A stretch of 64,000 bases of DNA, from contig NC_019703.1 in assembly GCF_000317045.1 (NCBI RefSeq), positions 62,001 to 126,000 of the forward strand. Reading direction: 5' to 3'. The translations under genes were made by a program, and so were the position numbers. Source of the DNA: Geitlerinema sp. PCC 7407. Its GTDB lineage: Bacteria; Cyanobacteriota; Cyanobacteriia; PCC-7407. This document shows positions 34,045-45,914 of the stretch, in pieces. The stretch's first letter is position 1. Every line of letters begins with the position of its first letter. The notes under the pieces were generated by a model. That model made no database searches and had not been told where the DNA came from. It saw nothing but the letters and a program-made list of their open reading frames with translations.

Positions 34045-37000
34045 ATGCTGGCTTCCCAAAATCCCAACTACGCCTATCAGGTCGGGGGCAGTCTGCCGCT
34101 CTATTCGGCCAGCTATGTGCGCCGCCAAGCCGATGAGGATCTGCTGACCGGCTTGCTCAACGGAGAGTTCTGCTACGTGTTCAACGCGCGGCAGATGGGC
34201 AAGTCGAGTCTGCGGGTGCAAACGCTGCACCGATTGCAGGCGCGGGGGGTGCGGTGTGGGGTGCTGGACATGACGGCGATCGGCACCCACGAGATCACGG
34301 CGGAGCAGTGGTACGCGTCGGTGATTGGCTTTTTGGTGAAGGAATTTCGCCTGACGCTGCCTCTGGCCCAGTGGTGGCGCGATCGCGCCCATCTCTCGCT
34401 GATCAGCCGCCTGGGGGAGTTTCTGGAGTCGGTGCTGCTCTGCCAGATTGGGGAGCCCGTCGTGATTTTCATCGATGAAATCGACAGCGTTCTGAGCCTG
34501 CCGTTTTCGGTGGATGATTTCTTTGCCCTGATCCGCGCCTGCTACAATCGCCGGGCCGAGCAGGAAGCGTACCGGCGGCTTTCCTTTGCGCTGTTTGGGG
34601 TGGCGACGCCCCGCGACCTGATTGCCGATCCGACCCGCACACCGTTCAATATTGGCCGCGCCATTGAGCTCGACGGCTTTCAGTTCGCTGAGGCCACGCC
34701 CTTGCTGACCGGCTTGGGCCAGATCAGCGCGTCGCCAGCGGAAATCTTGCACCGGGTGCTGACCTGGACCGGGGGACAGCCATTCTTGACCCAAAAGCTC
34801 TGCGATCTGATCGCGCGCCAGCTTGGCCAAGAGGGCGCGGCAGGTCCTGAGACGCCGCCTTTGGCGGGTAAGGCGCTGGTGGATTGGGTGGTGTACGCGC
34901 GTATCCTCCAGAACTGGGAGGCTCAAGATGAGCCCGAGCACCTCAAAACGATTCGCGATCGCCTGCTGTACGACGAGGCCAAAACGGGCCGACTGCTGGG
35001 CCTCTATCAGCGCCTGCTGGGAGTCTCGGGGCCGCTGGAGCCAGAGGAGCTGACCACAAAATTTCTCAAGCCTCCGGTGGCCACTGAGAGCGTGCCGTTT
35101 GATAACTCTGCGGAGCAGACGGCGCTGCTGCTCTCGGGGCTGGTGGAGCGGCGCGGCAGCGGCCTGAGCATCAAAAATCCAATTTATCAGGCGGTTTTCA
35201 ATCCTGGGTGGGTGGCCAAACAGCTGGACGCCCTGCGGCCCTACGCGCCCAACCTCCGGCTGTGGGCTCAGTCGGGGTTCGCAGACAGCTCTCGCCTGCT
35301 GCGGGGTCAGGCGCTGCAAGAAGTGCTGGCCTGGGCAGAGGGCAGGAGCCTGAGCGATCTGGACTACCGGTTTATGGCGGCCAGTCAGGAGTGCGATCGC
35401 CAGGAGGTGCAGGCGCACCTAGAGGCGGAACGGCTCCAAGAGGTCGAAGCTCGGCTGGAGCTCGAGCGTCAACGCAGCCTGGAGCAGAGCCAGAGCCTGA
35501 ACCGTCAGCGCACGCTGTTGGGAGTGCTCAGCGGGGCGATGGTGATGGCGATCGCCTTTGGCTTGCTGGCCTACAGTCAATATCAGCGCACTGCTCTGAG
35601 CGAACTGCGGGCGATCGCCCTGTCCTCCGACGCCCTCTTCGCCTCCAACCAGCGGCTAGACGCCCTGATCCAGGCCATCAAAGGCCAGCAGCGCCTGCGC
35701 CGCCTGGACTTCTCTGCCCCTGACCTGCGCGACACCCTCGATGCCAGCCTGCGCCGCGTCCTGCTGAGCATCCAGGAAGCCAATCGCCTCAGCGGTCACC
35801 GCAGCGCAGTGCTGACCGTCGCCTTTAGCCCCGATGGTCAGCAGTTGGTGTCCGGCAGCGTAGACGGCAGCCTCAAGTTTTGGCGGCGCGATGGCCACCT
35901 GCTGCGCACCCTCCAGGGCCACCAGAGCGTCATCCGAGTCGTGCGCTTTAGCCCTCGCGGAGATCTGTTTGCCTCCACCGGCGACGACAAAACCATCAAG
36001 CTGTGGACCCCCAGCGGGGATCTGGTGCGGACCATCCCTACCCAAATCGGCGGGATCTGGAGCCTGGACTTTAGCCCTGACGGCAGCAGCCTGATTGTCG
36101 GTGGCAGCAACGACCTGATCGAGGAGCACAGCATCAGGGGGCCGCTGATCCAGACGCTGCGAGAGACGAACGTGGGAGTGCGGGCCGTTGCCTTTAGCCC
36201 CGATGGCAAGACGATCGCCGCCGGGTGCATGGACAACACGATCAAGCTGTGGACCCGCGATGGCGTGCTGCGGCAAACCCTGCGCGGCCACGACGGCCCA
36301 GTCCAGTCTCTGGCCTTTAGCCCCGACGGAGCGCTGATGGTCTCGGGCAGCGACGATCGAACCATCAAGCTATGGCAGCAGGACGGCACCCTCCTTAGCA
36401 CCCTGCCCGCCCACGAGACCATGGTGAAAGAACTGCGCTTCCATCCCGACGGCCAGAGCTTCGCTTCGGCGAGCTGGGACAAAACCATCAAGCTGTGGAC
36501 CCGTGATGGACGGCTGCTCAACACGCTGCGGGGTCATGACGCGGCCATTTGGGGGATGGCGTTCAGCCCCGATGGCCGGGCGATCGCCTCTGCCGGGGCC
36601 GAAAACACGGTGATTCTCTGGAAAACCCAAAGTGATTTTCAGCAGCGCTTCTATGGCCTGACGGGCTCCACGCGCAAGCTGCTCTTCAGTCCTGACGGTG
36701 CCTCTATTGCCTTGGTGGGCACCGACAAAACCATCAAGCTGTGGACCTCCCATGGGCGACCCCTCAAGGCTATCAGCGGCCACACGGGCTCCCTCACGAG
36801 TATTGACATCAGCCCCGATGGCCAGGAGTTCGCCAGCTCCAGCGAAGACAAAACGATTCGGCTCTGGTCCCGAGACGGCACCCCGCTCAAGACCCTGACC
36901 GGACACACCAGTACTGCCTTGAGCGTGGTGTGGCATCCCGATGGACAGTCCCTGGCCTCGAGCGACGTCGAGGGAGTCATCCTGCTGTGGAGCGCCGATG

Positions 37001-37623
37001 GCACCCGCCTAAAAACGCTGCGCGGCCACCGAGCATCGGTCTGGGACGTGGGCTTTAGCCCCGATGGGGAGCTGCTCGCCTCCGGGGGAAATGATTCCCT
37101 CGCGAAAATCTGGAGCCGCGAGGGACGGCTGCTGCACACGCTGGAGGGGCATCAGGCCGCCGTTTGGAAGGTTGTCTTTAGCCCGGACGGTCAGCTGTTG
37201 GCCACGGGCAGCGGCGACAAAACGGCCAAGCTGTGGACCCGAGACGGGCAGCTAGTCGCGACGCTAGCGGGCCATCAAGCCGCGATCTGGGGAATTGCCT
37301 TTAGCCCCGATGGGCAGATGATTGCCACGGCCAGCGTTGATGCCACGATCCGGCTTTGGCGGCGCGATGGCCAGCTGATCACCACCCTAGAAGGCCATCA
37401 GTCGGGGGTGCGCAGCGTGGCGTTTCATCCGACGGCCCCGATCTTGGCGTCGGCGGGCGATGACCAAACCCTGATGCTGTGGGATCTCAATCAGATTTTG
37501 TCTCTAGATCCGTTGCAGTATGCCTGTGGCTGGGTGGGCGATTTTTTGCGGACCAATCCCACTGTGGAGCCGGGCGATCGCACGCTGTGTCGAGATCTGC
37601 CGCGATCGCCCAGGACGCCGTGA
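34045..37623 (+). CDS. Membrane-anchored AAA-like ATPase with 14 WD40 repeats
   Basis: A 1192-residue protein. The N-terminal AAA-like NTPase has Walker A Ala-Arg-Gln-Met-Gly-Lys53-Ser-Ser and Walker B Phe-Ile-Asp144-Glu145. A helical stretch with coiled-coil character (about 445-485) leads to one transmembrane helix near 491-512. Residues 582-1150 contain 14 WD40 repeats with Ser-Pro-Asp-Gly and Ile-Lys-Leu-Trp signatures, enough for two seven-bladed propellers. By analogy with other WD40-NTPases it may sense a ligand or build a scaffold. It lies next to a smaller AAA-like gene with an N-terminal helix-turn-helix, and it is orthodox in codon use. Confidence 0.9.
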   Translation: MLASQNPNYAYQVGGSLPLYSASYVRRQADEDLLTGLLNGEFCYVFNARQMGKSSLRVQTLHRLQARGVRCGVLDMTAIGTHEITAEQWYASVIGFLVKEFRLTLPLAQWWRDRAHLSLISRLGEFLESVLLCQIGEPVVIFIDEIDSVLSLPFSVDDFFALIRACYNRRAEQEAYRRLSFALFGVATPRDLIADPTRTPFNIGRAIELDGFQFAEATPLLTGLGQISASPAEILHRVLTWTGGQPFLTQKLCDLIARQLGQEGAAGPETPPLAGKALVDWVVYARILQNWEAQDEPEHLKTIRDRLLYDEAKTGRLLGLYQRLLGVSGPLEPEELTTKFLKPPVATESVPFDNSAEQTALLLSGLVERRGSGLSIKNPIYQAVFNPGWVAKQLDALRPYAPNLRLWAQSGFADSSRLLRGQALQEVLAWAEGRSLSDLDYRFMAASQECDRQEVQAHLEAERLQEVEARLELERQRSLEQSQSLNRQRTLLGVLSGAMVMAIAFGLLAYSQYQRTALSELRAIALSSDALFASNQRLDALIQAIKGQQRLRRLDFSAPDLRDTLDASLRRVLLSIQEANRLSGHRSAVLTVAFSPDGQQLVSGSVDGSLKFWRRDGHLLRTLQGHQSVIRVVRFSPRGDLFASTGDDKTIKLWTPSGDLVRTIPTQIGGIWSLDFSPDGSSLIVGGSNDLIEEHSIRGPLIQTLRETNVGVRAVAFSPDGKTIAAGCMDNTIKLWTRDGVLRQTLRGHDGPVQSLAFSPDGALMVSGSDDRTIKLWQQDGTLLSTLPAHETMVKELRFHPDGQSFASASWDKTIKLWTRDGRLLNTLRGHDAAIWGMAFSPDGRAIASAGAENTVILWKTQSDFQQRFYGLTGSTRKLLFSPDGASIALVGTDKTIKLWTSHGRPLKAISGHTGSLTSIDISPDGQEFASSSEDKTIRLWSRDGTPLKTLTGHTSTALSVVWHPDGQSLASSDVEGVILLWSADGTRLKTLRGHRASVWDVGFSPDGELLASGGNDSLAKIWSREGRLLHTLEGHQAAVWKVVFSPDGQLLATGSGDKTAKLWTRDGQLVATLAGHQAAIWGIAFSPDGQMIATASVDATIRLWRRDGQLITTLEGHQSGVRSVAFHPTAPILASAGDDQTLMLWDLNQILSLDPLQYACGWVGDFLRTNPTVEPGDRTLCRDLPRSPRTP

Positions 37624-37633
37624 GACCAAGCCT

Positions 37634-39148
37634 CTAGGGCTGGGTGAACAGGGTTGGGTCGAGGTAGTTGATCCGCGCCAGGGGACTGAGGGCGGTCATT
37701 ACCTGCTGGCCGTAGGTGCGGTGAATGACGCGGCTGTCGAGGAGGGCCACGACGCCCTGGCGCTCGCGCACCGGGGCGATCGCCCGCTGGAGCGCTGCTA
37801 GGGCCTCGGGCAGCAGATACAGCCGAAACCAGTCCTGGCGCTGCTGCTTGTAGTAGGTGACTCGGCCCGCCACCAAGGGATGCTCCAGGGAGGGCAAGGG
37901 CAAAGCGGCGATCGCCAGCAGCGACGGCGCTGGCAAGACGCTCTGGTGCTGACGCCAAAACTCCCACCCCGTCACCAAAATTCCTTTTTCGTCTAGGCAG
38001 GTGCGCTCCACCTGCACCCGCGACCCAAACTCGGCGGCCAGCAGCGACCCCAGCTGAGCCTTGAGGGGCACATCGCCCACCAGGACCACCGCCGGACCGG
38101 GCGCCGCGGCGCTAGCGCTCAGGAGCGATCGCAGCTCGCGCACCACCGCCCCCTGGTACTCCGGCGTGTTGGGCATCGGCACAGACTCCGGCAAATACAG
38201 CTGGATCAGCTCCGTCTGGCGATCGGGCGCAAACTTGATGCACGTCAGCTCGCCCAGGCCCAGGCGCTGGCGATAGATGGGCGCTTCGGCTTCCAGGTCC
38301 AGCGCCCCGCCAATCACCACCACCGGCTGGCGCTCCCAGACCCCCCGCAGGGTCGGCGCCAGCTCCACCGGGCTGGCCTGGATCGTAAACTGCCCCGCGC
38401 GTCGGTCTACCGTTGCCCACAGCAGCGAATTCGCCGCCGCGAAAGCCTGCCAAAAGCGCTGCCAAACCTCGGGCAGCCCGCCCGGCACCGCTGGCAGCCC
38501 GGTGCGCAGGTACTCCAGCGCCGACTGCTCGGGGGCCTCGACCAGGTGGCAGCCGTAGGGATTGCTCGGGTGCTGAAATAGCGATCGCGTCAAAAAGACC
38601 CGCGTATCGCGAATCAGCTCCGTCTGCTCCGGACAGGCCAGCATCAAATCATTCCAGGCCAAGGGCTGGACCTGCACCGTCAAATGGCTGTGGGCCCAGG
38701 ATTCTAGGTCATCGGCCCCGTCGAGAATCGTCGGAATCCCGTCTGGAATCGTCGGCTGCGCGGCGAGGCGATCGCTCAGCCACGCCTCCGGCGACATCAG
38801 CAGCAGTCCCTGAAAATCGTCCCCTGGCCAGCGATCGCCCCGCCGGATCGTCTTGGGGCTCGAGATCCACTGCTGCAGCCGCGGGATCTCCACCATCAGC
38901 AGCCGCTGCTGCACCCCTTCTGGCGCCACAATGACCACCGACTCCGGCCAGCACAGCACCGGCATCAGATAGCTCAGGCGATAGCGACCGTAGCCCCCCG
39001 ATGGCGGCTCCGCCTGTAGCAGCGCACTCCGTCCAAGCCGCAGTGCCCGCGCCACCAGCCGAGCCATCGTCAAGTGATGGGGCCAAAACGGCTCTCCCTG
39101 TTCCCGCAGGAAAGCCCGCAATTGCTGATGAACTTCTACCTCAATCAC
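37634..39148 (-). CDS. DinG/XPD-type helicase relative with degenerate motor motifs
   Basis: A 504-residue protein from GTG 39148. Its C-terminal part (Gly-Val-Val-Ala-Leu-Leu-Asp-Ser-Arg-Val) matches the last helicase motif of DinG-like proteins. Where a Walker A (Ala-Gly-Thr-Gly-Thr-Gly-Lys-Thr) should stand, the sequence reads Ala-Glu-Pro-Pro-Ser-Gly-Gly-Tyr-Gly (about residues 44-52), with no Lys-Thr. The DEAH motif is replaced by Asp-Gly-Ala-Asp-Asp. ATP hydrolysis is therefore doubtful. The protein may bind DNA or act as a partner of an active helicase. Its 3' end nearly abuts the WD40 gene. Confidence 0.65.
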   Translation of the reverse strand: MIEVEVHQQLRAFLREQGEPFWPHHLTMARLVARALRLGRSALLQAEPPSGGYGRYRLSYLMPVLCWPESVVIVAPEGVQQRLLMVEIPRLQQWISSPKTIRRGDRWPGDDFQGLLLMSPEAWLSDRLAAQPTIPDGIPTILDGADDLESWAHSHLTVQVQPLAWNDLMLACPEQTELIRDTRVFLTRSLFQHPSNPYGCHLVEAPEQSALEYLRTGLPAVPGGLPEVWQRFWQAFAAANSLLWATVDRRAGQFTIQASPVELAPTLRGVWERQPVVVIGGALDLEAEAPIYRQRLGLGELTCIKFAPDRQTELIQLYLPESVPMPNTPEYQGAVVRELRSLLSASAAAPGPAVVLVGDVPLKAQLGSLLAAEFGSRVQVERTCLDEKGILVTGWEFWRQHQSVLPAPSLLAIAALPLPSLEHPLVAGRVTYYKQQRQDWFRLYLLPEALAALQRAIAPVRERQGVVALLDSRVIHRTYGQQVMTALSPLARINYLDPTLFTQP

Positions 39149-39340
39149 AGATCGGCAATATGGCAAGGAGTGCAAAAACTTTGTTGATAGAACAGACCCC
39201 ACAAGGGCAAAGTTCCCTGCGCCGCGGTCTGCGATCGCCCCCGATCGCTCAACCCACGATCTGGGACCCGCTTCAGCCAGGCAGCAGCCTCGCTGCCAAC
39301 TTTTCACCGAAGCGTGACTCTAGCCTAACCCAAACCCCCC

Positions 39341-39371
39341 GGAAAGGCCGGACGAGCTCTCCTGGCCTTCC
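39341..39371 (-). terminator. Possible terminator of the first pentapeptide gene
   Basis: Imperfect inverted repeat (GGAAAGGCC...GGCCTTCC) starting 20 bp past the stop on the minus strand. Only a short T run follows, so it is a weak candidate. Confidence 0.35.
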
Positions 39372-39390
39372 AGCGCGATCGCCCTGCGCC

Positions 39391-40956
39391 TCAGCGCTGA
39401 TGCGTACTTGTCCCGTGCTCCTGGTAATAGAACCCCTGCAAAAATTCCCGCACCGTATTAGCAGAAGGCATTTGGCCCATCGGCGTCGATCGCGCCGTCA
39501 CCAGCACCTCCTCCACCACCCCCTGGGGCGAAATCAAGCGACGGCCAAAATCCGGGTGCCGATGCACCAACAGCTGCTGATCGCTGGAATTGGTAATCGA
39601 CACCCGCGTCGGCACCCGGAAAAACTCCAGCTCCGACACCCGCGCCGGCATCTCCACCCCCTCAAAGGCGGCCACCATCTCCCCCAGCAGATACTCCATC
39701 ATCTGCAAGTGAGCCCGCTCCTTGGGCCGGTTGGCCACCGTCTCCTGCATCATCGTCAGCATCATCTCGATATTGCGATGGGTGGCTCCCCCATCCTTGA
39801 AAGGCATGATGAAGGCATAGGCCAGCAGCAGCAAATGCTCATCGCTCTTGGCCCGAAACTTGAGCACCGTGCGGCGCCGGCACACCTCCACGCTGGGAGG
39901 CTGCCCCAGCTGGGGATAGCGCTCGGTCAGGCGCTGGTAGGCCTCCGATAGCGCGAAGTTCTCGGCATAGCCCAGCGCCGCATCTACCTCCAGCTCGATG
40001 GTGGGCGGCACCGCATTAAAAAATTGGCGGGCCGATTCGATATTGAGGTGGTGAATGTGGCTGCTGTCGCCCTTATCGCTCAAATCGACCCACTCGCAGG
40101 TCATGCCGTCGGTCTTCAGGCCAAAGCGGGACACCCCGTAGAGCTTGGCCCCTGTGAGAATAGCGCCGCTCAGATCCGCCCCGATCCAGTCCGCATCGAT
40201 CAGCGTGGCTTGGGTCAGGTCCGCGTGAACAAAGCTGGTGTTGAGCAGATTGGCGTGGCTGAGGTTCGCCCCAATGAGATTGGCCCCGCTGAGTTTGGCG
40301 TCGCTGAGGTCTGCCCAGCGCAGGTCAGCGCCGCTGAGGTCCACCCAGCGCAGGTTGGCGCCGCTGAGGTTGGCGCCGCTGAGGTTGGCACGGCCCAGGT
40401 TGGCGTGGCGCAGCTCGGCGCCCCGCAGGTTGGCAGCCCGCAGGCTGGCCCGGTTGAGGTTGGCGCCGTGGAGCATCGCCTGCTCGAGGTGGGCTGCGGC
40501 TAGGGAGGCCCCTTGAACGTTGGCGCCGCTGAGGTTGGCGCCGTTGAGGTTGGCGAGGCGCAGCTGGGCTTCGCGCAGGTCAGCCTCGGTGAGATCGGCT
40601 TCTAGCAGGTTGGCCTCGGAGAGGTTGGCCCGGATGAGCTCGGCCCGAATTAGCTGAGCGCGCACCAGCTGCGCCTCGCTGAGGTCTGCTCGAATCAGGT
40701 TGGCGACGTTGAGGACGGCTTCGTTGAGGCAGGCGCCGCTGAGGTTGGCGCTGCTCAGGCGGGCGACGTTGAGCTTGGCCCGCTGGAGGTTGGCCCGATT
40801 GAGGTTGGCGCCGCTGAGGTTGGCAATGCTGAGGTTGATGTCTCTCAGGTCGGCGCCGCTGAGATTGACCTGGCTCAAATTGGCCTCGCGAAGCTCTAGG
40901 GCGGTAAAGTTTCGTTCTCCCGCCGCGTACCGATCCAAGAGTTCCGTGATGTTCAT
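39391..40956 (-). CDS. Pentapeptide-repeat protein (copy A)
   Basis: A 521-residue protein. Residues about 15-285 consist of some fifty pentapeptides of the form Ala-(Asn/Asp)-Leu-x-x, which fold as a right-handed quadrilateral beta-helix. The C-terminal 235 residues form a non-repetitive domain shared with copy B. That domain holds an Arg-Arg-Arg-Thr-Val-Leu-Lys-Phe segment and ends with Gln-Gln-Leu-Leu-Val-His-Arg-His-Pro-Asp-Phe-Gly-Arg-Arg. No signal peptide is seen. Pentapeptide proteins may mimic DNA (gyrase inhibitors) or serve as scaffolds; neither is shown here. Confidence 0.9.
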   Translation of the reverse strand: MNITELLDRYAAGERNFTALELREANLSQVNLSGADLRDINLSIANLSGANLNRANLQRAKLNVARLSSANLSGACLNEAVLNVANLIRADLSEAQLVRAQLIRAELIRANLSEANLLEADLTEADLREAQLRLANLNGANLSGANVQGASLAAAHLEQAMLHGANLNRASLRAANLRGAELRHANLGRANLSGANLSGANLRWVDLSGADLRWADLSDAKLSGANLIGANLSHANLLNTSFVHADLTQATLIDADWIGADLSGAILTGAKLYGVSRFGLKTDGMTCEWVDLSDKGDSSHIHHLNIESARQFFNAVPPTIELEVDAALGYAENFALSEAYQRLTERYPQLGQPPSVEVCRRRTVLKFRAKSDEHLLLLAYAFIMPFKDGGATHRNIEMMLTMMQETVANRPKERAHLQMMEYLLGEMVAAFEGVEMPARVSELEFFRVPTRVSITNSSDQQLLVHRHPDFGRRLISPQGVVEEVLVTARSTPMGQMPSANTVREFLQGFYYQEHGTSTHQR

Positions 40957-41433
40957 TGGGATGCCCTGAACGCACTGAGTCTATTCACCAACCGCACCTT
41001 CGGCGATCGCCTCCAGTGCAAGCTTTTTGCGCACTGCTGAGCGCGATCGCTTTCCCAAAGGCCCCGTTTCCAGGCTGATGCCAGCCTTTCCCCCAGCCGT
41101 TGCCCATCGTGCTCTTGCCATTCCTACGACGCTCTCACACCCAGCGTCAATTGAGTGCTTGACAGCTTCGATGGAAGCCGTATTTTCACGGATTTCCCAG
41201 GCAGCCTTGGGCGAGAGAAGGATCACCGCTGAGCAAAGAAAGTTCAGACAGCAGACCGCTGGGGGACAGGGCAGCTCGGGCGCGATCGCCGACTGCGAAA
41301 TAAAAAGGCTTTTGCTAAAAAAACATACTTGGTTTTAGTTATGCCCATTTTTGAGCAGTTTCACTCGCGTCCCTCGGAGGAAGTGGCGGACTCCAGGCGA
41401 GTGCTTTGACTGCGATCGCGCGCGGCCGCAACT
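40957..41433. other. Spacer between the pentapeptide paralogues
   Basis: About 480 bp. An 81-codon minus frame (40981-41226) has no recognisable family and is probably not a gene. The promoter of copy A should lie here. The part near 41310-41345 is A/T-rich. Confidence 0.45.
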
Positions 41434-42999
41434 TCACAAGTCGTGGAAGTGCCGCACAAAGTCGGCTGTCACGCTGAGGGGCGGCAGCAAAAAGGGAGCG
41501 GCTTTTTGGGGTGGGGGCGTCGGCAGGGGGGAGGCGGTCGGGTTCGGGGAGGCCTCGACCTCGCTCATAAAGCGCTTGCCAAAGGCCGGATGGTGGTAGA
41601 CCGTGAGGCGCTGGTTGCTGGAGTTGATCAGCATGGTTTGGGTGGGCGTCTGGAAGAAGGCACCCCGCTGGGCGAGGCGCGGCAGGTTGTCGAGGATGGT
41701 CACGCCGTCGATTTGGGCGGCGAGCTGGTGCAGAACTTCGCTGAAGGTTTCGGGGGGAGTTTTGGTGTTGCTTTCTGCACTGCCGTCCTGGAGCGATCGC
41801 ACCATTTCCAGAAGATTTGTCTGGGTGACCGCCGCGTCCTCAAAGGGCAAAATCGCGCTGTAGGCGGTCGCAAACAGCTGCACGTTGCTGGCGACTTGAA
41901 ACAAGATCACCGTTCGCCGGGGGCCCACCTGGATGCTGGGCGGATGGGCCATCACGGGCGATCGCCGGGCGATTTGCCGATAGATCACCGCCAGGGATAC
42001 CGCCGCATCGGGATCGAGGGGCGCATCCACCGTGATTTGCACCGTCGGCAGCGTTTCGTTAAAAAACTGTCGGCAGTCTTCCTGAGAGAGGTATTGAATC
42101 TGGCTGTTGTCCCCCTGGGGGCTCAGATCGACCCACTCACAGGTCAAATCTTCGACTTTGAGCCCATAGCGAGACACCCCATGGAGCTTGGCCCCCGTCA
42201 GGGTCGCCCCGGTCAGCTCCGCCCCGATCCAGTCCGTCCCGATCAGGTTCGCCCGGGACAAATCAGCGTGGATCAAGCTGGCGTGGGTCAAGTTCACATT
42301 GCGCAGGTCGGCCCCCACAATGGCGGCGCCGCTGAGCTTGGCCTCCGTCAGGTCCGCCCCCCGCAGGCGCGCCCCGGTGAGATTGGCCCAGCGCAGGTTG
42401 GCCCCGTGGAGATCGGCGCCGATCAGCAGGATTTCGCTCAGGTTGGCCAGCCGCAGCTCCGCATTTCGGAAGTTGGCGCGGGTGGCATTGGCGCGGTTGA
42501 GGTCTGCCCCGCGCAGGTTGGCCTGGTCGAAGACCGCATCGGCCAGGGTCGCCCGGTGAAAGTTGACTTCGCTCAGGTTGGCGCGGCTGAAGTTGGCCTG
42601 ATGGAGCTGGGCTTCCTGGAGCTGGGCGCCCCCCAGATCGGCGCTGTCGAGGGTGGCCTGCTTGAGGTCGGCTCGCATGAGCTCGGCGCGGATCAGGGCG
42701 GCTTGGTTGAGGTTAGCTCCGGTGAGGTCGGCCCGCACGAGGTTGGCGACATTCAGGATGCAGCTGCTGAGGTTGGCGCCGCTGAGGTTGGCGCCGCTGA
42801 GCTTGGCGACGTTGAGGCGTGCTCCTCGCAGGTCCGCGCCGCTGAGATTCGCGCCGCTGAGATTGGCTACGCTGAGGTCGGCACCGCTGAGGTCGATATG
42901 GCTGAGGTTGGCGCGGCTGAGGTTGGCTTCCCGCAGGTCCATGCCCCCAAAATTCCGCTCACCAGCCCCGTATCGCTTCAGAAGTTCTTCAGCTTTCAT
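41434..42999 (-). CDS. Pentapeptide-repeat protein (copy B)
   Basis: Also 521 residues and parallel to copy A: the same N-terminal form (Leu-Leu-x-Arg-Tyr-x-Ala-Gly-Glu-Arg-Asn-Phe), about 270 residues of pentapeptides, then a homologous C-terminal domain with Gly-Pro-Arg-Arg-Thr-Val-Ile-Leu-Phe and Tyr-His-His-Pro-Ala-Phe-Gly-Lys-Arg. The two genes clearly arose by tandem duplication and have since diverged. The C-terminus of copy B is longer in Pro and Ser. Confidence 0.9.
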   Translation of the reverse strand: MKAEELLKRYGAGERNFGGMDLREANLSRANLSHIDLSGADLSVANLSGANLSGADLRGARLNVAKLSGANLSGANLSSCILNVANLVRADLTGANLNQAALIRAELMRADLKQATLDSADLGGAQLQEAQLHQANFSRANLSEVNFHRATLADAVFDQANLRGADLNRANATRANFRNAELRLANLSEILLIGADLHGANLRWANLTGARLRGADLTEAKLSGAAIVGADLRNVNLTHASLIHADLSRANLIGTDWIGAELTGATLTGAKLHGVSRYGLKVEDLTCEWVDLSPQGDNSQIQYLSQEDCRQFFNETLPTVQITVDAPLDPDAAVSLAVIYRQIARRSPVMAHPPSIQVGPRRTVILFQVASNVQLFATAYSAILPFEDAAVTQTNLLEMVRSLQDGSAESNTKTPPETFSEVLHQLAAQIDGVTILDNLPRLAQRGAFFQTPTQTMLINSSNQRLTVYHHPAFGKRFMSEVEASPNPTASPLPTPPPQKAAPFLLPPLSVTADFVRHFHDL

Positions 43000-43231
43000 A
43001 CACCGTTTCTACGTCCCAGCGGTTGTTGGCGAATTATCGCAAGTTTTGGCCAGGGTTTTTGCCCAGCCCGGCAGGAAAAACGGGATTTGCGCCCTAGTGC
43101 TCACTAAGGGCGATCGCCCTTGGCGGACCCCTTTGGCCTAGCCGTCATCGATTCTCTCTACTGTGACAGTAGCCTAGGCAAAGCAGTCCGTGGGCTAGGA
43201 TCAGGAATCGCTGCGATCGCGAGGCGTCGGT

Positions 43232-44071
43232 ATGAAAGTTGGAATTGTCGGCCTAGGGCTCATTGGGGGATCGCTGGGGCTAGACCTGCGGGCTTTGGGC
43301 CACTGGGTGGTGGGATCGAGTCGGCGGCCCGAGACGGGCGATCGCGCTCTAGAGCTGGGCGTGGTGGATGAAGCGAGTCCGGACTTGGCCATTATGGCCC
43401 AAGCGGAGGTGGTGTTTTTGTGTACGCCCATTGAGGCGATCGCCCCTGCCGTAGCGGCGCTGCGTCCTCATTTGCGTCCTGAAACTATTTTGACGGATGT
43501 TGGCTCAGTGAAGGCGCCCATTGTGGAAGCGATCGCGCCTCTGTGGCCCAATTTTATTGGCGGTCACCCCATGGCGGGTACCGAATTTAGCGGCGTCGAG
43601 GCGGCCCAGCGGCGTCTGTTTGAGGGCCGGCCCTACGTGCTGACGCCCACCGCTACGACCCCTCCGACCGCCTGCGAAACCGTGGCGGCGATCGCCCGCT
43701 CTCTCCAGGCGGAGGTCTACGAGTGCGCCCCCGATATTCACGATCGGGCCGTGGCCTGGATTTCGCACCTGCCGGTCATGGTCAGCGGCAGCCTGATCGC
43801 CGCCTGCGAAGGCGAGCGCGATCCTCTGGTTCACAAAATGGCCCAGTGCTTTGCTAGCTCGGGCTTTCGGGACACGAGCCGAGTCGGCGGCGGCAACCCT
43901 GAGCTGGGGCTAATGATGGCACGCTATAACCAAGCGGCCTTGGTGCGATCGCTCCGGGCCTACCGCGATCGCCTCGACCAGGTGATTCATCTGATCGAGG
44001 ACGAACAGTGGGACGCCCTGCACGAGCAGCTCCAGGCCCAGCAGCAGGCCCGGCCCGCCTACCTGAAGTGA
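43232..44071 (+). CDS. tyrA: Arogenate/prephenate dehydrogenase
   Basis: A 279-residue enzyme of tyrosine synthesis. The Rossmann motif Gly7-Leu-Gly9-Leu-Ile-Gly12 starts the protein, and the substrate-side motifs Gly-Gly-His-Pro-Met-Ala-Gly-Thr and His-Asp-Arg-Ala-Val-Ala are present. In cyanobacteria this form uses L-arogenate and NADP+; the cofactor choice is plausible from Ser-Ser-Arg-Arg after the second strand. Tyrosine also feeds homogentisate for tocopherol. Confidence 0.93.
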   Translation: MKVGIVGLGLIGGSLGLDLRALGHWVVGSSRRPETGDRALELGVVDEASPDLAIMAQAEVVFLCTPIEAIAPAVAALRPHLRPETILTDVGSVKAPIVEAIAPLWPNFIGGHPMAGTEFSGVEAAQRRLFEGRPYVLTPTATTPPTACETVAAIARSLQAEVYECAPDIHDRAVAWISHLPVMVSGSLIAACEGERDPLVHKMAQCFASSGFRDTSRVGGGNPELGLMMARYNQAALVRSLRAYRDRLDQVIHLIEDEQWDALHEQLQAQQQARPAYLK

Positions 44072-44093
44072 CGTCCGGGCTGCTTGCCGGGGC

Positions 44094-44834
44094 CTAGAAC
44101 CAGTACTTGGGATAGACCCGATCTCGCGCCAGGTTATTGAACAGGACCGCGCAGCTCACCAGGATGATCGCTCCCGGCAGCACCGGCATCCACAGGAAGC
44201 TCCAGGACGCCTTGGACATCAGCACCACCAGGGGCGTCGCCCCGGCAGGCGGATGGAGCGTGCTGGTGATCTGCATGATGCCGATGGAGGTCGCCACGGC
44301 CAGCGCCATCACCCACCACTCAGCCCCGAAGGTGTGCAGCAGGGTCAAGCTGATCAAGGTGGCCAAACAGTGGCCCCCGATCACGTTGCGGGGCTGAGCC
44401 AGGGGACTGTCCGGTGCCCCAAAAATCAGGACGCAGGTCGCACCAAAGGGCGCGATCAGCAGGGGGGCACCGACCCAGGCCGAGGGGTAGCTGGTGGCGG
44501 TGATGCCGATGAAGGCCCCCAGCCAGGACCAGAAAATATAGCGAAAACGCAGCTTTGGGGGACGCCCCCGGCCGCCGCGCATTTTGGTGAGATAGAAGCG
44601 AGTGCGGCGAGTCAGAGGATGACGCTGGGCAGATTTGGCGAAACTGCGCTCCAGCACTTCTCGCACAAGCGGGTACTTCCGGAGCGATCGCGACCTTGAG
44701 CCAGTTTGATGGGGTTTCACAGGCAAGGGGGTAGGCAGGACAGCAGTCACGGCAGCCGGTGCGAAGCGTTTCCTCGGGCGATCGCCGAAGCACTCCAACC
44801 CGCTGCAACAGCGCGCAACTTCACAAGTCGTCAC
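44094..44834 (-). CDS. HPP family membrane protein
   Basis: A membrane protein of up to 246 residues. The family hallmark His-Pro-Pro-Ala-Gly-Ala-Thr-Pro is present near the fourth hydrophobic segment. About four transmembrane helices are visible in the last 160 residues. In a cyanobacterium and in Arabidopsis chloroplasts, HPP proteins have been linked to nitrite transport; whether this copy does so is unknown. The start is uncertain: GTG 44834 gives a long basic N-terminus, while ATG 44582 gives a compact core of 162 residues. Confidence 0.8.
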   Translation of the reverse strand: MTTCEVARCCSGLECFGDRPRKRFAPAAVTAVLPTPLPVKPHQTGSRSRSLRKYPLVREVLERSFAKSAQRHPLTRRTRFYLTKMRGGRGRPPKLRFRYIFWSWLGAFIGITATSYPSAWVGAPLLIAPFGATCVLIFGAPDSPLAQPRNVIGGHCLATLISLTLLHTFGAEWWVMALAVATSIGIMQITSTLHPPAGATPLVVLMSKASWSFLWMPVLPGAIILVSCAVLFNNLARDRVYPKYWF

Positions 44835-44954
44835 GCAAAACTGTTACATAGGATACAAAATTACAAATGCTTAAGCAATAGTACCCAGCAAATTAAATCT
44901 GCTTGTGCTCCCCGCGATCGCCTGTTCAGGGGCGATCGCGCGCCCCATTTCCCC

Positions 44955-45914
44955 CTAAGCGTTTTTCTCGTAAGTCTCGTAGGCCGCCACGATGCGCTGC
45001 ACCAGCGGGTGGCGCACCACGTCCGCCTGGGTCAGATGACAAAAGGCAATGCCGTCAACATTTTGTAAAATGCGCTGAGCCACTGCTAACCCGGAGGCCT
45101 GATTGCTCGGCAGGTCCGTCTGGGTGACGTCCCCCGTCACCACCATGCGCGACCGGAAGCCCAAACGCGTCAGCACCATTTTCATCTGGGCGGGCGTTGT
45201 GTTTTGGGCCTCATCCAGGATGACAAAGGCGTTGTTGAGGGTGCGGCCGCGCATGTAGGCCAGGGGCGCGACCTCGATCACCCCGCGCTCCATCAGGCTC
45301 GGGATCTTTTCGGGGTCGATCAGCTCGTACAGCGCATCGTAGAGCGGCCGCAAATAGGGATTGATTTTTTGCTGGAGGTCACCGGGCAAGAATCCCAAAC
45401 GCTCCCCCGCTTCGACGGCGGGACGGGTCAAAATCAGCCGCTCGAACTGGTTGGAAAGCAGCGCCTGGACTGCCAGCATCGCTGCCAAAAAGGTCTTGCC
45501 GGTGCCCGCCGGACCAATGCAGAAGGTGAGGTCGTGGGACCGAATGGCCTGGATATACTGGCGCTGACGAAAGGTCTTGGCCCGAATCTCTTCGCCCCGC
45601 CGGGTGCGCACCAGCACGTCTTCGCGCAGGGCCTGGAGCTCTTCGGTGCGATCGGTGTTGAGGGCGTGCTGGGCCGTCAAGATGTCCACGGTGCTGACAG
45701 CCTTGCCCCTTGTCCACAGGTCGCCCAGGGCACGAACGAGATCGCTACAGCGCTCGATTTGCTTTTCGGTCCCGGAGATCAGGAGGTCTTGGCCTCGCAA
45801 AACCACAGTGGCTCCGGTTTGGCGGGCCAGCACTTTGAGATTTTCTTCTTGATAACCGGCGAGGGCGAGGGCGCTTTCAACGCTGGGAAGCTGAATCGTG
45901 GATGACGCTACCAT
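44955..45914 (-). CDS. phoH: PhoH family ATPase
   Basis: A 319-residue cytoplasmic protein from ATG 45914. A KH-like N-terminal region (about 1-80) precedes the ATPase domain with Walker A Gly134-Pro-Ala-Gly-Thr-Gly-Lys-Thr141 and Walker B Val-Ile-Leu-Asp-Glu-Ala-Gln-Asn. The motif Thr-Gly-Asp-Val-Thr-Gln-Thr-Asp is also family-typical. PhoH-like proteins are linked to RNA metabolism and phosphate starvation in some bacteria; no Pho box was identified here. Confidence 0.93.
   Translation of the reverse strand: MVASSTIQLPSVESALALAGYQEENLKVLARQTGATVVLRGQDLLISGTEKQIERCSDLVRALGDLWTRGKAVSTVDILTAQHALNTDRTEELQALREDVLVRTRRGEEIRAKTFRQRQYIQAIRSHDLTFCIGPAGTGKTFLAAMLAVQALLSNQFERLILTRPAVEAGERLGFLPGDLQQKINPYLRPLYDALYELIDPEKIPSLMERGVIEVAPLAYMRGRTLNNAFVILDEAQNTTPAQMKMVLTRLGFRSRMVVTGDVTQTDLPSNQASGLAVAQRILQNVDGIAFCHLTQADVVRHPLVQRIVAAYETYEKNA

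Follow-up and report, generated by a model that had tools for sequence, protein, structure and literature searches.

A tandem pair of pentapeptide-repeat proteins in Geitlerinema sp. PCC 7407 with a predicted HetL-like rod and a C-terminal domain lacking convincing relatives in curated libraries

The window analysed here is a 64,000-nucleotide stretch of Geitlerinema sp. PCC 7407 (contig NC_019703.1, positions 62,001 to 126,000), to which all coordinates below refer. On its minus strand lie two consecutive genes for pentapeptide-repeat proteins, each an open reading frame (ORF) with an ATG start and 521 amino acids plus stop: P0002, the upstream gene (41434..42999), and P0001, the downstream gene (39391..40956). 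The spacer between them (40957..41433, 477 bp) contains no promoter-like or terminator-like site on the minus strand; in a scan of 39250-43300, the two promoter-like sites and the single terminator-like one that were returned face the other way from the pair, on the plus strand. No RNA family reached its gathering score in 37000-45000. The spacer exceeds 40 of the 41 inter-copy spacers found in relatives, which measure 0-266 bp from stop to stop. The G+C content at third codon positions is 0.82 and 0.81 in the pair, 0.80 in the helicase-like gene next to it and 0.73 in the neighboring tyrA.

The two proteins share one plan, a pentapeptide solenoid followed by a C-terminal domain, and both ORFs are as the initial annotation had described them: same strand, same size, 477 bp apart. 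Within residues 1-285, Leu or Phe occupies a single register in 51/57 and 50/57 pentads of the two copies, and the Pfam family Pentapeptide (PF00805) matches both (E values of 4.9e-70 and 4.8e-75; 231 and 247 bits, for a membership threshold of 20.2 bits). By score and by in-register Leu/Phe, both sequences classify as pentapeptide-repeat proteins. The copies are 49% identical overall, with 171 identities over the 285 residues of the helix part and 79 over the 226 aligned positions that follow; homology between the copies extends over the remaining 236 residues, which bears out the earlier proposal of a shared C-terminal domain. The silent distance between them is 0.94 for the helix part; for residues 287-400, it is 1.08. 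With the C-terminal domain as query, no further paralogue was found in the genome up to an E value of 10.

The full P0001 model generated by AlphaFold from a 17-row alignment has a predicted local distance difference test score (pLDDT) of 86.7 and a predicted template modeling score (pTM) of 0.71. Residues 1-285 (40102..40956), with pLDDT blocks of 82-98, are predicted to form a right-handed quadrilateral beta-helix resembling HetL, closed by an N-terminal cap helix (residues 3-11). The best fold matches of this rod are a designed solenoid and HetL (PDB 3du1), both with Z = 32.5; HetL superimposes with a root-mean-square deviation (rmsd) of 1.0 over 223 residues. In P0002, the cap and beta-helix (residues 1-285, 42145..42999) are assigned from the pentad register and the family alignment, P0001 being the modeled copy. 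HetL is likewise a capped solenoid whose length is largely kept among orthologues, but its 237 amino acids make up a single repeat domain (PMC7476756), whereas P0001 and P0002 add a predicted domain of 236 residues. They also fall short of the 260-bit cut-off of the HetL model NF047416, at 223.2 and 178.8 bits, and the genome has a separate HetL at C1:2513182. The NP275/NP276 fusion (2j8k) and Alr5209 (6omx) are cyanobacterial pentapeptide solenoids, too (Z = 31.2 and 17.9), but their solved chains are short, 181 and 121 residues. Both copies exceed the 125-bit cut-off of the Alr5209 model NF052603, with 179.2 and 211.6 bits, although these scores are summed over four to five stretches of a 113-position model, and size and domain plan differ. 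Such a summed pass could mislabel proteins of this kind in automatic annotation.

The C-terminal domain comprises residues 286-521 in both proteins (39394..40101 in P0001, 41437..42144 in P0002) and starts in P0001 near the motif C-E/D-W-x-D-L-S-x-x-G-D. Modeled separately (P0001 residues 279-521, 58 rows; pLDDT 85.7, pTM 0.81), it is predicted to have an alpha/beta architecture: two short strands, a helix, a beta-alpha-beta-beta-alpha unit, further helices and two strands, followed by a low-confidence linker (residues 474-494) and a short terminal helix (residues 499-507, 39436..39462), in which F505 is invariant in the 17-row alignment. The domain had not been recognized from the sequence, and the database searches agree: no convincing relative emerged from Pfam, NCBIfam or the PDB sequences. 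Scans of 58 members gave only weak, scattered Pfam matches (33 families, each in at most six members among the 25 listed, with a best E value of 0.011 among those 25) and 25 NCBIfam families hit by at most two members each (best E value 6.3e-4, in one member). A profile of the domain found nothing among PDB sequences at an E value of 5. At the structural level, Foldseek returned no match for the isolated domain at an E value of 0.001 or better (the best being 9.3e-3), and a VIA fold search returned nothing above Z = 5.5 (rmsd 6.6, 106 residues aligned). The weak fold hits are not regarded as relatives; they comprise M16-peptidase-like proteins, complex III core subunits, cyclases, PII-like and other ferredoxin-like folds, and a phage SAM lyase. 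The predicted domain may possess a known fold despite these empty lists.

Relatives are common in cyanobacteria. Of 390 candidate stretches from a protein-alignment search of genome contigs, 372 are loci encoding relatives; detailed counts were made on the best 80, all cyanobacterial by title. The C-terminal domain is present in 45 of 291 genomes of the phylum, all within the class of the window's genome, and in 28 of 112 genera. Matching open frames of at least 438 amino acids, long enough to include the repeats, occur in all positive genomes but one (G188). In that genome, a family-gene remnant (G188:C156:13286-13726), two fragments in a 149-residue frame, has apparently decayed. Two or three copies are encoded by 15 of the 45 positive genomes, G188 not being counted among these, and the best 80 loci contain one copy in 53 cases, two in 13 and three in 14. 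Among plasmid sequences, 2927 records match, none of them with a single stretch that covers more than 80% of the query; the 10 listed end at query residues 279-338 and thus match mainly the repeats. Judged by their sequences, P0001 and P0002 belong to a pentapeptide-repeat subfamily of widespread cyanobacterial distribution with an uncurated C-terminal domain. No description of this family was found in literature titles and abstract openings, a survey that mostly leaves subscription journals uncovered, so it may have been described elsewhere. Cyanobacteria are the group richest in pentapeptide-repeat proteins, whose functions there are described as almost completely unknown (2021 review, PMC8145042). 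The present family is widespread and under purifying selection in relatives, it keeps the length of its rod, and the curated libraries that were searched offer no convincing relative for its C-terminal domain.

The length of the solenoid hardly varies in the family. In pairwise alignment, 131 of 136 members have no solenoid indel relative to P0001; in a set made non-redundant at 85%, 47 of 51 are gapless. The nine solenoid indel events of this smaller set are all multiples of five residues, while the C-terminal parts of the same proteins show 126 events, four of them multiples of five. All 44 proteins in which both an N- and a C-terminal anchor motif are recognized have the two 277 residues apart; in 42 further frames, mostly from Nostoc and its kin by title, the N-terminal pattern was not found. 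The five exceptions among the 136 are the divergent members at L020-L023 and L094. Four ORFs were omitted from this set: L024, its duplicate L028, the stop-truncated L025 and a partial frame at L027. L024 carries helix indels of 10 and 25 residues and, if counted, brings the exceptions to 6 of 137. The set of 80 loci is tilted toward close relatives, and four of the five exceptions come from a sample of 59 genomes. HetL served as a control. Compared with the HetL of the window's genome (46-64% identity), 12 of 20 orthologues are gapless, one has a five-residue indel at the repeat start, four have changes of one to three residues near 198-203, where there are no repeats, and four are gapped in the N-terminal extension (one of these also being among the 198-203 changes). 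In these alignments, the solenoid length is also preserved among HetL orthologues, somewhat less strictly than in the P0001/P0002 family; a fixed length is therefore a trait of such rods and not special to this family.

The initial annotation had deduced constraint on helix length from the equal size of the two window genes. The constraint itself agrees with the family-wide alignments, but the window pair's equal total length lends it no support. P0001 and P0002 align without a gap up to residue 408, both with MAFFT and in a global BLOSUM62 alignment. Beyond this point, P0002 has gaps of one and nine residues and P0001 gaps of four and six: ten each, cancelling out. The alignment of the two copies, named beforehand as a test, thus revealed compensating indels in the C-terminal part, and equal total length is rejected as a sign of indel avoidance in this pair. 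Matching lengths are not rare in the family either: among the 51 non-redundant members, 68 of 1275 pairs (5.3%) are equal in total length, and the commonest lengths, 520 and 521, are found in seven members each. Neighboring copies in the arrays of relatives are unequal in length in 30 of 41 cases. Given the cancelling gaps, the frequency of matching lengths and these unequal neighbors, the equal length of the window pair is best read as a coincidence.

In the other 11 of the 41 neighboring pairs, all from Microcoleus-type loci, first and second copies are both 520 residues long, and 10 of these pairs align without any gap over their whole length at 55-58% identity (L077, L085, L090, L092, L093, L095, L099, L101, L104 and L107). 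Avoidance of indels is better exemplified by the Microcoleus-type first and second copies than by the window pair, and the idea put forward for the latter fits the former better. Since these loci are closely related, they may represent a single event or a small number of events.

Conservation is unevenly distributed on the surface of the rod. The mean entropy of exposed positions is 0.99 and 0.98 on two adjacent faces versus 1.49 and 1.56 on the others (within-coil permutation p = 0.00075; 13 coils, 47 gapless non-redundant rows). The net charge of the helix ranges from -11 to +7 among 51 members, with a median of -2, and the two copies contain 25 basic (Lys/Arg) against 28 acidic (Asp/Glu) residues and 29 against 29, respectively. 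Gyrase-binding pentapeptide proteins, in comparison, are described as displaying large contiguous negative patches (PMC7476756). The general fold of the rod is shared with MfpA (Z = 21.6 at 2.3 Å), QnrB1 (Z = 20.7 at 3.0 Å) and AlbG (Z = 19.4 at 2.8 Å), which would be compatible with a DNA-mimicking topoisomerase protector. Yet, such a role is hardly credible for P0001 and P0002: the near-neutral helix lacks acidic DNA-mimic character, all listed Qnr and MfpA models of NCBIfam score far below their cut-offs, and the C-terminal domain is an extra feature. No membrane-like segment was seen in the two copies (highest 19-residue hydropathy of 1.01 and 1.25) nor, judged by eye, a signal-like N-terminus.

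HetL, a structurally close and characterized rod, interferes with PatS by binding the hood domain of HetR, for which its residue D151 is required (PMC7476756). P0001 and P0002 might, similarly, regulate HetR or a filament or differentiation program by binding the HetR hood domain. The predicted HetL-like solenoid is in line with this, and a HetR hood domain is found in 43 of 45 family-positive genomes versus 21 of 246 family-negative ones. Common descent and genome size confound this association, however: its Fisher p value of 6e-33 does not amount to independent evidence among genomes related by descent, and the small genomes of group f2 have neither a family gene nor HetR. Moreover, two positive genomes (G169 and G258) lack a HetR match, and P0001 and P0002 both have Asn at the position of HetL D151, five-residue gaps making the register of this alignment uncertain. 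Regulation of HetR is, hence, considered distinctly improbable. The named hosts of the family are, we presume, filamentous genera. A more specific version, in which the family constitutes a second HetL-type arm acting on HetR in filamentous cyanobacteria, appears highly unlikely: each protein would be a long HetL-like rod carrying its own sensory or docking domain, and the ordered pair would form a hetero-complex modulating HetR or another filament regulator. As a separate observation, eight of the 21 genomes whose HetL (loci L139-L159) passes the curated cut-off have no HetR hood match (G068, G099, G122, G135, G137, G145, G148 and G158), and HetL may, therefore, have a HetR-independent role there. 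PatL of Anabaena PCC 7120, linked to heterocyst pattern, is also a pentapeptide-repeat protein (496 amino acids); by its description, the repeats are C-terminal (PMC3566145), whereas they are N-terminal in P0001 and P0002.

The favored tree separates the two window genes. In this tree of 35 chosen rows, from which the divergent L020-L023 and L026 were left out, P0002 joins the first copies of five arrays (Oscillatoria, Laspinema, two Oscillatoriaceae and one from family f22) with a support of 82/89. P0001 joins three single copies (92/90), adjoining the second copies (82/86). Most likely, the copies stem from an ancient tandem duplication and were kept in order, as this tree suggests without proving it. 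Selection was measured as the ratio of nonsynonymous to synonymous rates (dN/dS) in relatives only, P0001 and P0002 being too diverged from each other. Over aligned codons of 14 three-copy loci, the median dN/dS of first, second and third copies is 0.065, 0.059 and 0.172 in the helix and 0.082, 0.119 and 0.478 after residue 286; for single copies (every second of 53), the medians are 0.083 and 0.162. The family is under purifying selection in these relatives. The third tandem copy of the Microcoleus-type arrays (L077, L085, L086, L089, L090, L092, L093, L095, L098, L099, L101, L104, L106 and L107) is under weaker constraint than its neighbors in both parts. The persistence of copy pairs in several lineages suggests different roles for the copies.

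The explanation favored here, to which we assign about an even chance, is that P0001 and P0002 are diverged paralogues acting as rigid, protein-binding scaffolds in the cytoplasm, each composed of a HetL-like rod and an alpha/beta domain. The rod, of nearly fixed length up to about residue 285, would be joined to the C-terminal domain with its variable linker and short terminal helix. Its two adjacent conserved faces would form a docking edge for a partner protein, and the length of the rod would determine how far this edge is from the C-terminal domain. P0001 and P0002 may act on different partners or together. The scaffold may derive from a HetL-like ancestor extended by another domain. By analogy, the way in which HetL, a structurally close relative, acts, namely by binding the protein HetR, is consistent with a scaffold. 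The conserved pair of faces and the paired copies make concrete tests of this model possible, including whether rod length matters.

Several points weigh against this model. Length is also kept in HetL, which in sequence consists of repeats only, so that its conservation would not require two functional parts to be held apart. The conserved edge could reflect packing against the C-terminal domain or self-association. As to the copies, the supports that separate them in the tree (82/89, 82/86 and 92/90) are moderate, and a quick tree of 103 rows, in which every third single-copy locus was used, left both window genes unplaced. In the 35-row tree, neither Microcoleus (L077) nor Argonema (L033) has its first copy within the first-copy group; both Argonema copies form a pair (91/77), as do the second and third copies of L077 (98/94). 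These arrays depart from the split between first and second copies, and duplication, therefore, happened more than once. This repeated duplication, together with an approximately unbiased test that does not reject P0001 and P0002 as sisters (p = 0.21), would also suit a lineage-specific duplication without division of labor, the second copy being redundant. Such a history seems unlikely, given an identity of only 49%, the silent distances near or above one and a favored tree that separates the two genes.

The surroundings of the pair are partly conserved. Divergent from it lies tyrA (43232..44071, plus strand), encoding a prephenate/arogenate dehydrogenase (NF005650, 407.8 bits). Downstream, in the same direction as the pair, a homologue of DinG/YoaA-like helicases is recognized by homology matches (37634..39307, minus strand); its true start is probably near 39157, as matches in other genomes mostly begin near residue 50. 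In relatives, tyrA is upstream and divergent in 74 of the 80 loci, in 71 of them within 0.9 kb from stop to stop, and in 15 of 20 further regions. The DinG/YoaA-like gene is downstream and in the same direction in 24 of the 80 loci, 17 times within 300 bp (stop to stop) and seven times at 1.5-7.1 kb, and it is found downstream in 10 of the 20 further regions. All these counts are lower bounds, since some loci stop at contig ends. A functional unit with one of these neighbors, for example an operon-encoded complex, would account for such recurrence. It is nevertheless quite improbable: tyrA lies on the opposite strand, the recurring gene order may reflect nothing more than old synteny, and the DinG-like gene, present in 146 of 291 genomes against 45 for the family, is not tied to it. 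For the latter gene, this far wider occurrence makes old synteny the probable origin of the link. Seven of the 146 genomes lie outside the class, with matches over the C-terminal half only. The nucleotide-binding motifs GxxxxGK[ST] and DE[AC][HD] are absent from all 23 aligned sequences of the DinG/YoaA-like homologue, that of the window included, and the protein may, from its sequence, be a non-catalytic helicase relative.

Two other genes recur near family members. Relatives of a DUF1517 protein (L031:9647-10255) are located within the flanks of 57 loci and those of a putative lipoprotein (L031:10457-11347) within the flanks of 55; in four genomes (G053, G039, G024 and G258), both are found in the interval that separates the family gene from the DinG-like one. 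In the window itself, the plus-strand gene at 34045-37623 encodes a protein of 1192 amino acids in which many WD40 repeats come after an AAA_35 ATPase domain.

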